A stretch of 64,000 bases of DNA from Paludibacteraceae bacterium (lineage in GTDB: Bacteria; Bacteroidota; Bacteroidia; Bacteroidales; Paludibacteraceae). Below are positions 3,031 to 10,550 of the stretch, piece after piece (the first letter of the stretch is position 1; the number at the start of each line of letters is the position of its first letter). Below the pieces are notes generated by a model. It worked only from the letters and a program-made list of their open reading frames with translations, made no database searches and was not told where the DNA came from. The position numbers and the translations under genes were made by a program. The stretch spans positions 1-64,000 of the forward strand of contig CAJOFU010000001.1 of NCBI GenBank assembly GCA_905233935.1, given 5' to 3'.

Positions 3031-4452
3031 ATGAACACAACGAATGGTAATTCCAAGCAGCAAGCGTTTCGCTTGGAGTCAGATCTGTTAGGAGAGTTGC
3101 GCGTACCGGCTGAGGCGTACTACGGCGTGCAGACGCAACGCGGCATAGACAACTACAAGGTGTCGAACCTGAAGATGTCGGATTTTCCGGAGTACATCAT
3201 TGCGATGGCTTACATCAAGTTAGCCGCCGTGGAGGCGAACCACGAGTTAGGGATCATCAACGATGCGATCTACGCAGCCATTGCGCAAGCGTGCCACGAA
3301 CTGATTGAGGGCAAGATGCATGATCAGTTCCCGACGGATATGGTGCAAGGAGGCGCGGGTACGACGGTGAATATGAACGCCAACGAGGTGATAGCCAACC
3401 GTGCGTTGGAGATCATGGGGCATAACCGCGGTGAGTACCAGTTCTGCTCACCCAACGACCATGTGAACTGTGCGCAGAGCACCAACGATGCCTACCCCTC
3501 AGCGTTCCGCTATGCGTTCATTAGAATGAACAGAGGGCTGGTGGAAGAACTCAAGAATCTGATTGCCTCGTTGAGGAAGAAAGGTGACGAGTTCAACGAC
3601 TCACTGAAGATGGGTCGTACGCAGCTGCAAGACGCCGTACCGATGACCAGCGGGCAAGAGTTCCACGCGTTTGCGAACAACCTCGAAGAGGAGGTAGCCA
3701 ACCTCGACAGGAACATCAAGTTGCTATACGAGATCAACATGGGCGGTACGGCTATCGGTACTGGTCTGAACGCCGCAGCGGGTTATGCGGAGTTGTGCAT
3801 CAGGAAGATGTGCGAACTGACCGGCGAGCCGTTTGAGTTGGCGAGTGACCTGGTAGAAGCTACACCGGACACCGGCGCGTACGTGAGCTACTCAGCATCG
3901 CTCAAGCGTCTGGCAGTTAAGCTGAGCAAGACCTGCAACGACCTGCGACTGATGGCGAGTGGACCGCGATGCGGCTTGCACGAGATCAACCTGCCGCCTA
4001 TGGCACCGGGATCATCGATTATGCCGGGTAAGGTTAATCCCGTTATCCCTGAGGTAACGAACCAAGTATGCTTCAAGGTGATAGGTAACGACACAGCCGT
4101 GACCTTCGCCGCCGAGGCAGGACAACTGCAGCTGAACGTGATGGAGCCGATCATCACCGAGTGTATCTTCGAGTCGATCACATGGCTAAGGAACGTGATG
4201 AAGATCCTTCGCGAGAAGTGCATCGACGGCATAACCGTCAACCGCGAGCATAACGAGAAGATGGTGAAACAATCCATCGGTATCGTGACGGCTCTGAACC
4301 CCGTGATAGGTTACAAAGCCTCGACGAAGATCGCCAAAGAGGCATTGGAAACAGGCAAGGGCGTATATGACCTCGTATTAGAGCACGGCTTGCTGAGCAA
4401 GGAGCAGTTGGATAAGTTGCTTGATCCCGAAAACATGTTAGCTGCGCATTGA
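3031..4452 (+). CDS. aspA: Aspartate ammonia-lyase
   Basis: GSSIMPGKVNPVIPEV signature; full-length 473 aa. Confidence 0.93.
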   Translation: MNTTNGNSKQQAFRLESDLLGELRVPAEAYYGVQTQRGIDNYKVSNLKMSDFPEYIIAMAYIKLAAVEANHELGIINDAIYAAIAQACHELIEGKMHDQFPTDMVQGGAGTTVNMNANEVIANRALEIMGHNRGEYQFCSPNDHVNCAQSTNDAYPSAFRYAFIRMNRGLVEELKNLIASLRKKGDEFNDSLKMGRTQLQDAVPMTSGQEFHAFANNLEEEVANLDRNIKLLYEINMGGTAIGTGLNAAAGYAELCIRKMCELTGEPFELASDLVEATPDTGAYVSYSASLKRLAVKLSKTCNDLRLMASGPRCGLHEINLPPMAPGSSIMPGKVNPVIPEVTNQVCFKVIGNDTAVTFAAEAGQLQLNVMEPIITECIFESITWLRNVMKILREKCIDGITVNREHNEKMVKQSIGIVTALNPVIGYKASTKIAKEALETGKGVYDLVLEHGLLSKEQLDKLLDPENMLAAH

Positions 4453-4453
4453 T

Positions 4454-5668
4454 ATGAACCGCGAGTTTATACTGATCAACATCATCGGTTTTGACAAACC
4501 CGGTGTGACCTCGGCTGTGACTGAGGTGTTAGGCAGGTACGGAGCGTATATCCAAGACATCGGTCAGTCGAACCTGCATCATCAGTTGAACCTGAGTATC
4601 CTGATCCGCATTGATGACCCCAGTAAGAGCGGTGACATGATCAAAGAGGTGCTGTTCTGCTGTTCGCGGTTGGAGATGATCGTTCGCTTCACGCCGCTGA
4701 GCGAAGAGGAGTACGCAGCGTGGGTAGGTCGTCAGGAGCAAGACCGTTACGTAGTGACGCTGCTGGCGCGCGAATTGAATGCACGCCATGTAGCCCGCGT
4801 AACCGAGTTGGTAGCCAAACGGCAACTGAACATTGACAATATCCTAAGACTGAGCGAACGCCCGAATGTAGAAGTGCCTGTAGAGAAACGCCACAGCTGC
4901 ATTGAGTTCTCGCTGCGCGGCAACCTGTCCGACCGCGAGGCACTGCAACGCGAACTGCTGGAAGTGTCAAGGGAAGAAGGTATCGATATATCCTTCCAGA
5001 AGGATGATATGTTCCGTCGTAACCGCCGCCTGATATGCGTGGATATGGACTCGACGTTCATCCAGACGGAGGTGATCGACGAACTGGCAATGCGTGCCGG
5101 TGTGGGCGACGAGGTGAAAGCCATCACGCTGTCCGCCATGCGCGGCGAGATAGACTTCAAGGAGAGCTTCACGCGCCGAGTAGCACTGCTCAAAGGGCTG
5201 GATGCCAATGTGCGTCAGGATATCATTGATAACCTGCCGATTACCGAAGGTGCAGACCGGCTGTTCAGTGTGCTCAAGAAGTGCGGATTCAAGATTGCTA
5301 TCCTGTCCGGCGGATTCACGTTCGTGGGCAAGTACCTACAGGAGCGTTTCGGCGTGGATTACTTGTACGCCAACGTACTGGAGGTGGAGGACGGCAAGTT
5401 CACCGGCAGGTATGTAGGCGAGGTGGTGGATGCCAAGCGCAAAGCCGAACTGCTTGAGCTCATCGCGCAGGTTGAGCATATCGACATGGCGCAGGTGATA
5501 GCCGTAGGCGACGGAGCCAACGACCTGAACATGTTAGGAAAAGCAGGATTAGGTATAGCGTTCCACGCCAAGCCGAAGGTCAAAGAGAGTGCCGCGCAGG
5601 CTATCTCAACCGTTGGTTTGGACGGCATATTATACTTCCTCGGATTCAAAGATTCGTTCCTCAAGTAA
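4454..5668 (+). CDS. serB: Phosphoserine phosphatase with N-terminal ACT-type domain
   Basis: CVDMDSTFIQTEVIDELA, ILSGGFTFVG, AVGDGANDLNML HAD motifs. Confidence 0.93.
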   Translation: MNREFILINIIGFDKPGVTSAVTEVLGRYGAYIQDIGQSNLHHQLNLSILIRIDDPSKSGDMIKEVLFCCSRLEMIVRFTPLSEEEYAAWVGRQEQDRYVVTLLARELNARHVARVTELVAKRQLNIDNILRLSERPNVEVPVEKRHSCIEFSLRGNLSDREALQRELLEVSREEGIDISFQKDDMFRRNRRLICVDMDSTFIQTEVIDELAMRAGVGDEVKAITLSAMRGEIDFKESFTRRVALLKGLDANVRQDIIDNLPITEGADRLFSVLKKCGFKIAILSGGFTFVGKYLQERFGVDYLYANVLEVEDGKFTGRYVGEVVDAKRKAELLELIAQVEHIDMAQVIAVGDGANDLNMLGKAGLGIAFHAKPKVKESAAQAISTVGLDGILYFLGFKDSFLK

Positions 5669-5680
5669 ACGGCTGAAAAC

Positions 5681-6337
5681 ATGATCATCATCTTCGATCT
5701 GGACGGCACTTTGCTCAACACGATAGACGATCTGGGCTATGCGTGCAACTTTGCGTTGGGGCAATCAGGTTACCCGACGCATCCTATTGCCGACTATCCG
5801 AAGATGGTAGGCAACGGGATTAACAACCTTATTAGGCGTGCGCTGCCCGTCACAGAGCGAACAGAGGAAAACGTGCAATACGTCCGAATACATTTTGTGT
5901 CATACTACAACCGGCACAACTGCGACTACACCCGTCCATATGACGGCATCCGTGCACTGCTCGCTACGCTCAAGGCAGAGGGACACCAACTCGCCGTGGC
6001 AAGCAATAAGTACCAAGTCGCAACGGAAAAGATCGTCACGCACTTCTTCCCTGACACCTTCGACGTCATCTTGGGCGAAAGAGACGGCGTGAACCGCAAA
6101 CCCGATCCGCGGATAGTGTTTGATATAGTCGAAAGCGAAAAGTCGAAAGTCGAAAGTTCGCAGGTTCTATATATCGGGGACAGTTTGGTGGATATGCAGA
6201 CGGCGCAGAATGCGGGAGTGCCGTTCATTGCGTGCTCGTGGGGATTCGTGCCGCGCAACGAACTGGTTGCCGCAGGTGTGACGCATATAGCAGACACACC
6301 CGGGCAAATAATAGAACTGTTGAAAGAGCGAGTTTAA
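5681..6337 (+). CDS. HAD hydrolase, phosphoglycolate phosphatase-like
   Basis: IIFDLDGTLLNTIDDL, VLYIGDSLVDMQTAQNAG. Confidence 0.85.
   Translation: MIIIFDLDGTLLNTIDDLGYACNFALGQSGYPTHPIADYPKMVGNGINNLIRRALPVTERTEENVQYVRIHFVSYYNRHNCDYTRPYDGIRALLATLKAEGHQLAVASNKYQVATEKIVTHFFPDTFDVILGERDGVNRKPDPRIVFDIVESEKSKVESSQVLYIGDSLVDMQTAQNAGVPFIACSWGFVPRNELVAAGVTHIADTPGQIIELLKERV
6128..6160. repeat. 7-bp array (GTCGAAA family) inside HAD phosphatase CDS
   Basis: GTCGAAA/GCGAAAA/GTCGAAA/GTCGAAA/GTTCG. Confidence 0.9.
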
Positions 6338-8856
6338 TCTTCCTTGCGGTCGAGTGCCCAACGGAAACCAAGATATATCTTCCAACCGGTAGTAGGCGCC
6401 CAGACCATCGAGGCATCAAACGGGGCAGAGTAATCAAGGATTACCTGTCCTGTTTCGTTATATGTACCGGCAATCGGATGATCCTGCGTGAAGTTCGTCA
6501 TGTTCTCTGCGCCAAGATAGAGCGAGCATGTGCGCCAGTACTTCGTGACTTGCGCGAGCAACTGCGGATACCACTGGTGGTACACATTGCCGTTCTTTTC
6601 GAAGTACTGCATGTTGGTGGCTGCATGTTGGAAGCCATCGGGCATTCGTCCGTAGCCGTTGAACTGGGCGGTGACATCGAACTGCCACTTCTTGAGAGGC
6701 GTGACGTAACTCATGGTTATCAGTCCCTTAAACTTGTTTTGAAGGGCTTTCTCGCGCAGTTCAAAGTTGTTGGTGGCGGCATTGAAGGTTGTCTGGCGCA
6801 CGTCGTTGTAACGGAATGCTGCAGTGATTGTCCAGCCGCGCAGTACTTCCATCGAGGCTTCGATCTGTGCCGTGTGGCTGAGTGAACGCGCTCCGGGTAT
6901 ATCGCTCAGGTTGTAGAACGTTACAGCATTAGGCGAGCCATCCAAATCGACCAGCACGCCGTCGAAGAAGTTCGTAAAATAATATTCCGCTGAGATTTGC
7001 AGGTTGCGTTTGCCTATGGGGATATCAAACACGGTAGTCAGACCAGCGTTCATGCTGCGCTCCTGTGACTGCGCGTTAATGGTGAATGTGCGCGTGGATG
7101 CGAGCAGTCCGGCGTTGTCCGCTATGATGTTCGGCGAGCGGTAACCCAGACCTACACTGCCCCGCAGTGTCCACCACTCGAACGGCGCATAGCGGATGTT
7201 CAGTCGCGGTGTGGCAAATAAGCCGTAGCGCGTCGAGTAATCGCCTCGCAGACCGGCAATCAAGGAAAGTTGTTCGCCGTACGTGAGCGTATATTCGGCA
7301 AAGATGCCGGGTGTGAGTTCGCGGCGGTCGAAGTTGATGGTGGATGGTGTAGGGTGTGGGGTGTACGGTGTAAGGGTTTCCCAGTATTGGTCGTAGTTGA
7401 GGGAGAGACCTGCGGAGAGTTTGTGGGAGAGGGCTTGGAGAGATCGACCATGCATGGTCGATGCATTATCTAAGGTAGATGCATTATTGGTGGTAGATGG
7501 CTCGTTCGTCCATGTGTTCTCAAAGATGGCGTTGAGGTAGGCGTTAGCCTGCGAGGCACGCCATGTAGTGCTACCGTAATGATTGTCCTGATCGTGGTAG
7601 GAACCTGCGACAATGATGCCGAGCGACATACCCGACTCCTCGTCAAAGACGATGCCGTTTTTCATGAATCCGTCAATGCGGTCGGTGCGGAGGTCGATGA
7701 GGTAAGGTGAGCTCGGCGGAACAGCGCCGAGAGCCGAACTATGCGTGGAACGTTGACCGCCATGGCGTTCGTCGTGCAGTCCGCGCACGAGGAACATGAA
7801 GGTGTAATTGTCGTTCTTGTAGCGCCAGCGGTTGAGCAGGTTGAGGTTGCGGTTGAGAGGCATATCAAGCACGCCGTCGTGGTTGTCATCCATGGGGAAC
7901 GCACCTTCCTGATAGTGCGCTAATACGCTCGTCGCCATCGAACCAAGCATGGGGTCGTTGGGCAGAGGAATCATCCATCCACCGGTGAGATTCGCCTCGG
8001 TGTAGAGCTCTTTGTTGAGCATCACATTCACGGCAAGAGGACTCTGTGTGTGAGGTTTGAGGTACTCGACATTGATCTGTCCGGTGATGGCTTCGTAGCC
8101 GTTGATGACGGATGAGGTGCCCTTGCTGATCTGCACGGCGTCCATCCACGAGCCGGGTATATACTCCAAGCCGAAGGACTGCGCCAAGCCTCGTACGGCA
8201 GGTGTGTTCTCGGTGAGCAGTTGCACATACGTGCCGCTGAGTCCGAGGAGTTTGATCTGCTTGGCTCCTGTAGCGGCATCGGCATAGGAGACGTCGACGG
8301 ATGCTGAGGTCTCAAAACTCTCGCTGAGGTTACAGCAAGCTGCGCGGCATAGTTCGCCCTGACCAAACGACTCGACATCGAATGCCGAGAACCGTGACTT
8401 GATGACCGACTGCCGGCGTGCCTCAATAGTGACTTCGTCAAGTTGCTGATCGTCGGGGATGAGGACGATAGCAAGGGGTTTGCGGTCTTTGACGCGCGTG
8501 GTGTCGTTACGGTAACCGAGGAAGGAGGTGACGAGGAGTTTGGTTTGGCGGATCGGTTCGATCTCAAAGAATCCGTCGGCGTTGGTTGTTGTGCCGACGG
8601 TTGTTTCCGCCCACCAGATGTTCGCTCCGGCAAGGGGCTCGCCCTGGTCGTCATAGACGATGCCTTGCAGGTGAGCGTGTATAGGGAGAGAGAGCGTGAT
8701 GAGGGCGACGAGAAGAACGGCTTTGTTGCAATTGGACACCAAGGGGCAACCCGTGCAGCCTTTCGTGCAGTCTGCACGCCGCTGACGGCGGATGACAAGG
8801 TACATGCCGATGGCGGCAGCGAGGATAAGTAATATAGTTAGTATCTTTTGTATCAT
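6334..8856 (-). CDS. TonB-dependent receptor with CarboxypepD_reg-like domain and N-terminal FeoB-associated Cys-rich segment
   Basis: N-term MIQKILTILLILAAAIGMYLVIRRQRRADCTKGCTGCPLVSNC then QGIVYDDQGEPLAGANIWWAETTVGTTTNADGFFEI and beta-barrel. Confidence 0.85.
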   Translation of the reverse strand: MIQKILTILLILAAAIGMYLVIRRQRRADCTKGCTGCPLVSNCNKAVLLVALITLSLPIHAHLQGIVYDDQGEPLAGANIWWAETTVGTTTNADGFFEIEPIRQTKLLVTSFLGYRNDTTRVKDRKPLAIVLIPDDQQLDEVTIEARRQSVIKSRFSAFDVESFGQGELCRAACCNLSESFETSASVDVSYADAATGAKQIKLLGLSGTYVQLLTENTPAVRGLAQSFGLEYIPGSWMDAVQISKGTSSVINGYEAITGQINVEYLKPHTQSPLAVNVMLNKELYTEANLTGGWMIPLPNDPMLGSMATSVLAHYQEGAFPMDDNHDGVLDMPLNRNLNLLNRWRYKNDNYTFMFLVRGLHDERHGGQRSTHSSALGAVPPSSPYLIDLRTDRIDGFMKNGIVFDEESGMSLGIIVAGSYHDQDNHYGSTTWRASQANAYLNAIFENTWTNEPSTTNNASTLDNASTMHGRSLQALSHKLSAGLSLNYDQYWETLTPYTPHPTPSTINFDRRELTPGIFAEYTLTYGEQLSLIAGLRGDYSTRYGLFATPRLNIRYAPFEWWTLRGSVGLGYRSPNIIADNAGLLASTRTFTINAQSQERSMNAGLTTVFDIPIGKRNLQISAEYYFTNFFDGVLVDLDGSPNAVTFYNLSDIPGARSLSHTAQIEASMEVLRGWTITAAFRYNDVRQTTFNAATNNFELREKALQNKFKGLITMSYVTPLKKWQFDVTAQFNGYGRMPDGFQHAATNMQYFEKNGNVYHQWYPQLLAQVTKYWRTCSLYLGAENMTNFTQDHPIAGTYNETGQVILDYSAPFDASMVWAPTTGWKIYLGFRWALDRKED
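7333..7374. repeat. Six-unit 7-bp array (GTGTNNG) inside TonB receptor CDS
   Basis: GTTGATG/GTGGATG/GTGTAGG/GTGTGGG/GTGTACG/GTGTAAG. Confidence 0.92.
7443..7462. repeat. Palindromic element ATCGACCA-TGCA-TGGTCGAT inside TonB receptor CDS
   Basis: Perfect 20-bp palindrome. Confidence 0.9.
7456..7500. repeat. 18-bp tandem repeat, 2.5 copies, inside TonB receptor CDS
   Basis: GGTCGATGCATTATCTAA/GGTAGATGCATTATTGGT/GGTAGATGG. Confidence 0.9.
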
Positions 8857-8885: not shown

Positions 8886-10550
8886 CTATAATATCAAGTT
8901 ACAAACAAATGCGGCGAGCCACGCGAGGAGCAGGGAGTTGATGACGGAGAACGCCGCCCAACGCCAACCTATCTCCTTGCGGAGCGTGGAAACGGTTGCT
9001 ACGCAAGGGAAATACAACAGGATGAACACGAGGAACGCATAGGCGGTACCCGGTGCGAGAGCCATCGTTGTCATGTCATAGCCAAATAGGATGGCGAAGG
9101 TTGCAGCGATGGCTTCCTTAGCAGGTACGCCGGTCATCAGGCAGACGCACATTCGCCAGTCAAAACCGAGGGGCGCCATAAGCGGTTCGAGCCAATGACC
9201 TATAGCCGCCAACCATGAATCTTCCATTGCATTGATATCTCCGGCAGGGAAGAACTCCAACGCCCAGATAATGATTGAGGCAAAGAGTACGACGGTAGTG
9301 ATCTTTTGCAGAAAATCCTTGACACGATGCCAGACGTGCGCGGTGATGGAGCGCAATGAGGGCATACGGAAATCCGGCAACTCGTTGACGCAGTCTTCTT
9401 CAGAGGTGCGGAACCATTTGGTCTTCTTGAGGATGAATGCCATGACGAAACTAAGCAACATTCCGAGCAGATAGAGCGAGGCGAGGATCAAAGCGTGGTG
9501 ACGTTGAAAGAACGTGGTGATGAGCAATATATATACCGGCAGACGTGCCGAGCAACTCATGAAGGGCACCATGAGCATCGTTACGGCGCGGTTCTTGGGG
9601 TTAGGTATCTGATCGCGGGCAGCGATGATGGCAGGCACGTTGCAGTCAAAACCCATCAGCAGCGGGAAGAAACTCCGTCCGTGCAAACCCATGAGGTGCA
9701 TGATCCTATCCATGAGGAAGTTGATACGTGCCGTGTAGCCTATGTCCTCAATAAGGCTGAGGCAGAAGAACAGGATGATAATGTTCGGCAACGCGGTGAC
9801 GAGTGAGCCTACGCCTTGCACCACTCCATCCGCCAACAGACTGCGCAGCCAACCCTCTGGCATAGTGCCAACAATCCAGTCGTAGAGCCAATCCACGCCG
9901 CTCTGCATCCAATCCTGAATGGGTGCGCCGATGGCGAACGTACACCAGAAAACGAAGCCCATGACGGCAAAGAAGATAGGGAATCCTGTCCATTTGTTGG
10001 TCAGGATGCGGTTGACACGTTCTTCCCAGGTGGCGGTATCCGTTTCGGGGTGAACGAGTACCTGCATGAGCAAACCTTCCATGTAGGCGTGCCAGGCTTC
10101 CTCGTCGGTTTGCTCCCAGCCGTGGACGATAAAATGTTGCAGGCTGTCAGCCTTTAGCCATTGGCTGTCGGCTTGCAGCAACCCAGACAGTTCGCTGATA
10201 CCCTCGCCGGTTACGGTTGATACGAGCAGTGTCGGCACGCCGGTTTGTTCGCGGAACGCTGCGAGGTCAAGGCTGTGACCTGTTTGGAGCAACAGGTCGT
10301 ACCTATTGATGGCTATGATCATCGGATGCCCGTGCTCCATGAACGACGGGGTCATCTGCAAACACTCGCGCAAACGGAGTGCATCCACAACTTGGAGCAC
10401 GACATCTGTCGGTGTGGTCAGATGATCCATCTGCTCGTGCGACGAGCACTCGGCAAACACTCTGCCGGGTGACGTAAGTCGCTCAATGACAGCACTCTTG
10501 CCGCTGCCGTCGAGTCCGACTACTGTAATATATAAAGGTTTGTTATCCAT
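8886..10550 (-). CDS. feoB: Ferrous iron transport protein B, short/atypical G domain
   Basis: Gate motifs GFDCNVPAIIAARDQI, MSCSARLPVYILL, TGVPAKEAIAATFAILFG; P-loop GLDGSGKS. Confidence 0.9.
   Translation of the reverse strand: MDNKPLYITVVGLDGSGKSAVIERLTSPGRVFAECSSHEQMDHLTTPTDVVLQVVDALRLRECLQMTPSFMEHGHPMIIAINRYDLLLQTGHSLDLAAFREQTGVPTLLVSTVTGEGISELSGLLQADSQWLKADSLQHFIVHGWEQTDEEAWHAYMEGLLMQVLVHPETDTATWEERVNRILTNKWTGFPIFFAVMGFVFWCTFAIGAPIQDWMQSGVDWLYDWIVGTMPEGWLRSLLADGVVQGVGSLVTALPNIIILFFCLSLIEDIGYTARINFLMDRIMHLMGLHGRSFFPLLMGFDCNVPAIIAARDQIPNPKNRAVTMLMVPFMSCSARLPVYILLITTFFQRHHALILASLYLLGMLLSFVMAFILKKTKWFRTSEEDCVNELPDFRMPSLRSITAHVWHRVKDFLQKITTVVLFASIIIWALEFFPAGDINAMEDSWLAAIGHWLEPLMAPLGFDWRMCVCLMTGVPAKEAIAATFAILFGYDMTTMALAPGTAYAFLVFILLYFPCVATVSTLRKEIGWRWAAFSVINSLLLAWLAAFVCNLIL
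10142..10179. repeat. Degenerate 7-bp array inside feoB
   Basis: GGCTGTC/AGCCTTT/AGCCATT/GGCTGTC/GGCTTGC. Confidence 0.7.

Follow-up and report, generated by a model that had tools for sequence, protein, structure and literature searches.

A FeoB-associated Cys-rich segment joined in frame to a TonB-dependent receptor: a probable precursor of two membrane proteins

The FeoB-associated Cys-rich proteins are encoded by free ORFs of 45–60 aa located directly after feoB, and consist of one hydrophobic helix, a basic stretch, and a CxxxCxxCxxxxxC motif. Transcript data for such genes exist for Bizionia (PMC9478572) and Porphyromonas (PMC10434189), and a 2022 survey of Feo systems considers it unanswered whether these ORFs give functional peptides (PMC8749426). 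The TonB-dependent receptors of Bacteroidota that have a CarboxypepD_reg domain start at their own Met and have a signal peptide of 20–25 aa. Internal signal peptides are found, for example, in FbcH of Bradyrhizobium, a cytochrome b/c1 polyprotein in which an inner-membrane protein is followed by an exported protein, while autotransporters can have extended signal peptide regions with an n1-h1-n2-h2 architecture. The Cys-rich proteins, the TonB receptors, and the internal signal peptides are thus each already known; our literature search found no description of a join between a Cys segment and a receptor.

Such a join is present in a 64,000-nucleotide stretch of DNA from a Paludibacteraceae bacterium (the window), whose source contig is part of a 2.2 Mb metagenome-assembled genome (92 contigs, 77% complete). 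The locus shares with the FeoB-associated proteins the helix, the basic stretch, the Cys motif, and the location directly after feoB, but the C-terminus of the segment runs on into a signal peptide and a receptor, and the remnant left after cleavage would have two helices instead of one. With the Bacteroidota receptors it has in common the domain order, the conserved ELCRAACCNLSESFET plug entry, and the predicted mature N-terminus (A/H, the slash marking the cut), whereas its signal peptide is internal. As in FbcH, one bacterial precursor would contain an inner-membrane part, an exported part, and a signal peptidase site; however, both FbcH products belong to one inner-membrane complex, while the second product here would be an outer-membrane receptor. 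With its two hydrophobic segments preceding the predicted cut, the fused protein recalls the autotransporter regions, which, however, lack a Cys motif and do not stem from a separate gene. The same kind of Cys segment is also fused to a neighboring gene in G716, a genome of the same order, where the helix and the motif form a C-terminal extension of FeoB itself (L126:2-1642) rather than being placed on a receptor.

Parts of the fused frame and their conservation

The fused ORF (6334–8856, minus strand, as for all features of the window given below) comprises 840 codons, starts with ATG, and has no interruption. A preliminary description, which covered 8707–8856, i.e., residues 1–50 with the Cys segment and the beginning of the second signal, had proposed that one ORF continues in frame through a second signal-like segment into a TonB receptor, and this continuous frame is now confirmed.

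The FeoB-associated segment occupies residues 1–43 (8728–8856). Its hydrophobic helix 1 (residues 5–22, 8791–8844; Kyte–Doolittle mean of 2.81, helix 2–29 in the structural model) is predicted to lie in the inner membrane with the N-terminus outside, and is followed by the basic stretch RRQRR (residues 23–27, 8776–8790), predicted to be on the cytoplasmic side, and by the motif C-x3-C-x2-C-x5-C (residues 30–43, 8728–8769). The family model PF12669 (FeoB_associated) matches residues 5–43 with 23.2 bits when the 57-aa N-terminus is submitted and with 24.6 bits for residues 1–45, compared to a gathering score of 27, which is exceeded by the fused orthologues of G008 (29.2) and G006 (27.7) as well as by the unfused relatives G092 (32.0) and G045 (33.5). 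The single N-terminal helix, the basic stretch, and the four Cys follow in the order typical of the family, and the gene is located on the same strand directly after feoB, at a distance of 29 nt. The layout recognized in the preliminary description is borne out, and so is its remark that the segment is normally a separate gene after feoB. The family trait that is absent is the free-standing small protein, the segment being in frame with a receptor in the window and in seven relatives, although it could become free after the predicted cleavage.

The four Cys are kept in all 12 sequences compared, fused and unfused, and R23, R24, and R26 are identical in the eight fused species. In the codon alignment of these species, the pN/pS ratios (Nei–Gojobori proportions), which are upper guides and not exact values because the synonymous sites are near saturation, amount to 0.28 for residues 1–46, 0.30 for residues 23–46, 0.62 for the signal core (residues 47–61), 0.15 for residues 62–144, and 0.16 for the receptor. 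For the Cys segment pN is lower than pS in all 28 species pairs, and insertions of 7 and 10 codons in the Cys region (indels of 21 and 30 nt) leave the frame intact. The signal core drifts yet is hydrophobic throughout, as expected of a signal peptide. The purifying selection on the Cys segment supports a function, although conservation of the four Cys could have a cause other than an accessory role in the Feo system. The Cys profile gives one match per fused genome, namely the fused copy; a second Cys-rich copy was not found in the eight fused genomes, which are metagenome assemblies of 73–94% completeness, any one of which may hide one.

Residues 64–840 match CarbopepD_reg_2, Plug, and TonB_dep_Rec_b-barrel. 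The CarboxypepD_reg-like N-terminal domain (residues 64–144, 8425–8667; PF13715) is beta-rich in the model, and the plug (residues 163–259, 8080–8370; PF07715) and the beta-barrel (residues 260–840, 6337–8079; PF00593) both score above the cutoff. The predicted structure, based on a 33-sequence alignment, has a mean pLDDT of 72 with a poorly modeled plug, and its receptor part resembles solved TonB-dependent receptors (BtuB, FecA, ZnuD, and others), these matches being generic as to the substrate. In seven relatives (G006, G136, G165, G065, G153, G104, and G128), an outer loop at residues of about 445–480 (7417–7524 in the window) is His-rich, with up to eight consecutive His, hinting at metal binding; the window copy lacks this feature.

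Two further observations concern receptors of related genomes. In G123, two TonB-dependent receptors occupy one frame of 1589 codons (L134, reverse complement 3584-8353), the signal-like segment of the second one (LFTMIAVPVLA/QHD) coming directly after the last strand of the first; this arrangement, seen in one genome, could reflect either a faulty assembly or another fusion with an internal signal. In G036, the receptor is followed by a small exported protein (L130, reverse complement 4855-5001) that by eye resembles a heavy-metal-associated domain.

The feoB gene upstream (8886–10550, 554 aa) ends 29 nt before the fused ORF, and its product matches TIGR00437 with 403 bits (cutoff of 316). 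The NTPase domain of FeoB is shortened in the genus (also in L043:2226-3992 and L046:2586-4076): it lacks the stretch that connects the P-loop (GLDGSGKS) with VVDA and that contains switch I and G3 in the intact FeoA-FeoB of G036, and L043 and L046 additionally lack the P-loop. Of the 13 genomes searched, one yielded a FeoA (PF04023), and three of the others are 94–96% complete. The Feo system of the genus is, as judged from these genes, possibly NTPase-degenerate and FeoA-less. A literature search on FeoB without a G domain gave nothing usable.

Distribution and origin of the fusion

The fusion was searched for in 178 genomes of the genus and in public genome contigs, with the alignment starting from residue 1. 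The same in-frame join is found in eight species of one genus (G000, G133, G006, G169, G008, G039, G136, and G128), which form a small set of uncultured bacteria from gut and rumen; the homologue search suggested in the preliminary description thus yields seven further species. Within the genus, strong matches of the Cys-segment profile in long frames (838–878 aa, and 470 aa in G128, where the contig ends) are confined to these eight. The remaining convincing matches, about 25 strong loci, are small separate frames of 33–136 aa, and a few of the weakest ones (E near 0.01) lie in unrelated longer frames.

Among 300 genomes of the family, the fused N-terminus used as the query was covered in full only by fused members of this genus. 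The Cys profile matches 50 of 393 genomes of the order, all of them in frames of 51–116 aa except for the window and G716, and no further fusion of a Cys segment to a receptor was found. The same holds for 346 genomes of the phylum searched with PF12669, where the matches are separate and those few that lie in longer frames comprise no more than the helix. The longest of the latter frames (G868) was checked and discarded as an unrelated membrane protein.

In the outgroups G036, G082, and G092, the Cys gene is a separate ORF a few bases ahead of the receptor. The close sisters G165, G065, G153, G104, and probably G037 also have separate genes, between which a small secreted protein rich in Cys and His is encoded. 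This protein of about 120 aa, which has an N-terminal signal-like segment (about 2592-2984 of L131 in G104), has no match in Pfam or NCBIfam. The tree of receptor and FeoB is compatible with a position of the four separate-gene sisters either before or within the fused group, a single clade not being rejected (AU p of 0.30). One fusion event is enough in either case, with or without a later split. The join point lies near the expected start codon of the receptor and has left intact the Cys motif as well as the basic end of the signal peptide. The fusion is a clade-specific variant built from known parts.

Start codon, cleavage, and topology

In four of the fused species (G133, G008, G136, and G006), the TGA stop of feoB and the ATG of the fused frame overlap as ATGA. 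This favors M1 as the start in use, with coupling to feoB.

The signal-like segment of the receptor is located at residues 44–61 (NKAVLLVALITLSLPIHA, 8674–8727) and not at the N-terminus, and it aligns with the N-terminal signal peptides of the unfused orthologues. All eight fused species have a basic residue at position 45, ahead of the hydrophobic core, and the predicted AxA-type cut, PIHA/HLQG (A61/H62), coincides with the mature start of the orthologues, e.g., SGSLTVSA/HLHG in G104 and MVLPIWA/HLQG in G036. More distant relatives such as L044 have A/Q at the aligned junction; signal peptidase I products of Bacteroidetes mostly begin with Gln (PMC5837995). We infer that the internal signal peptide is cut by signal peptidase I after A61. 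The signal peptide and topology assignments are derived from alignment, hydropathy, and charge, and not from a trained predictor.

In the structural model, helix 2–29 is followed by the Cys-bearing loop, helix 40–55, the beta domain, and the barrel. Because the receptor must be exported, the second helix should run from the inside to the outside, which would place the RRQRR/Cys loop in the cytosol and the N-terminus of helix 1 outside, provided that both hydrophobic segments span the membrane. With RRQRR placed behind helix 1, this orientation is also the one expected from the positive-inside rule.

The best model, which we consider probable, is a single precursor that signal peptidase I divides at its internal signal peptide. 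Translation would start from M1, adjoining or overlapping the feoB stop, and helix 1 would insert with the N-terminus out and the C-terminus in, leaving RRQRR and the four-Cys loop on the cytosolic side. Starting from this loop, the second hydrophobic segment would then act as an ordinary signal peptide, with the rest of the chain passing through Sec and the cut taking place after A61. The 61-residue remnant would stay in the inner membrane beside FeoB as a two-helix hairpin that keeps the Cys-rich accessory role, while residues 62–840 would reach the outer membrane and form a TonB-dependent receptor of the usual kind. The coincidence of A61/H62 with the mature N-terminus of the unfused orthologues argues for the cleavage, and the order of helix, Cys loop, helix, and beta domain in the structure, together with the coupling to the Feo genes suggested by the ATGA overlap, is in line with the single precursor. 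The single Cys-rich match per fused genome is also in line with this model. The membrane topology, the cleavage, and the stability and function of the remnant are, in this model, all predictions.

The alternative that survives best, albeit an unlikely one, is that the Cys segment has no Feo role and merely extends the signal sequence, to be cut off and degraded. The two hydrophobic segments ahead of the cut, as in the long signal sequences of autotransporters, the subject of PMC2805444, would fit such a leader. However, all four Cys and most of the basic stretch are unchanged among the eight species and are also present in the unfused FeoB-associated proteins, residues 23–46 are under much stronger selection than the signal core (0.30 versus 0.62, as upper guides), and another FeoB-associated Cys-rich copy was not found in the fused genomes.

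Somewhat less likely still are two separately started products, with the receptor initiated at a codon of the same frame close to the second signal, and the long frame being incidental. The preliminary description had proposed a GTG or TTG start there, and the window indeed has TTG (L39) and GTG (V40) just ahead of the signal, both of which are used as starts among bacteria. Neither codon is conserved across the fused species: GTG40 occurs in the window only, codon 39 reads TTA in G006 and CTG in G128, and a codon-by-codon check of the latter two found no ATG, GTG, or TTG downstream of the Cys motif and ahead of the signal core, so that no start-capable codon near the signal is common to all eight. 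The ATG of M18, within helix 1, is invariant in the eight fused species, but Met is also found at this position in the unfused G045, G086, and G157 and is hence not specific to the fusion; a shorter product from M18, as a minor start, is possible. Moreover, a start of its own for the receptor would free the Cys region from the frame, yet eight species keep the frame through indels of 21 and 30 nt. The lack of a conserved internal start and the in-frame join in eight species thus argue for the single precursor.

That the protein stays uncut and tethers the receptor of the outer membrane to the inner one is highly improbable. The ORF is continuous and the cleavage is a prediction, but only two residues separate the predicted cut from the carboxypeptidase-regulatory-like domain, which starts at residue 64. 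There is thus no long linker that could bridge the periplasm, and an uncut product would hardly arrive at the outer membrane. In addition, the AxA-type junction corresponds to that of the unfused receptors. The fusion spanning both membranes that the preliminary description had considered is accordingly implausible. A lost stop or frameshift, which it had named as the finding that would undo the fusion and which a metagenome assembly could produce, has practically no chance and was rejected, given the same open frame and in-frame join in eight independent occurrences from several independent projects.

Implications

An extension of the single-precursor model, which we regard as quite improbable, is that the Cys loop would be a cytosolic iron or redox sensor, metal binding altering the insertion of helix 2 or the cut. 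If so, the export of the receptor would be set by the cellular iron during synthesis of the chain.

Since the receptor would hardly be made unless the Cys-rich ORF is translated, the fusion acts as a natural translation reporter for a poorly understood Feo accessory, and as such bears on the question, raised in the literature, of whether Cys-rich ORFs of this kind are translated (PMC8749426). It is likewise a topology reporter: the Cys motif has to face the cytosol if the receptor is exported and both hydrophobic segments cross the membrane. The locus is a likely bacterial case of one ORF giving rise to an inner-membrane and an outer-membrane protein by means of an internal signal peptide.
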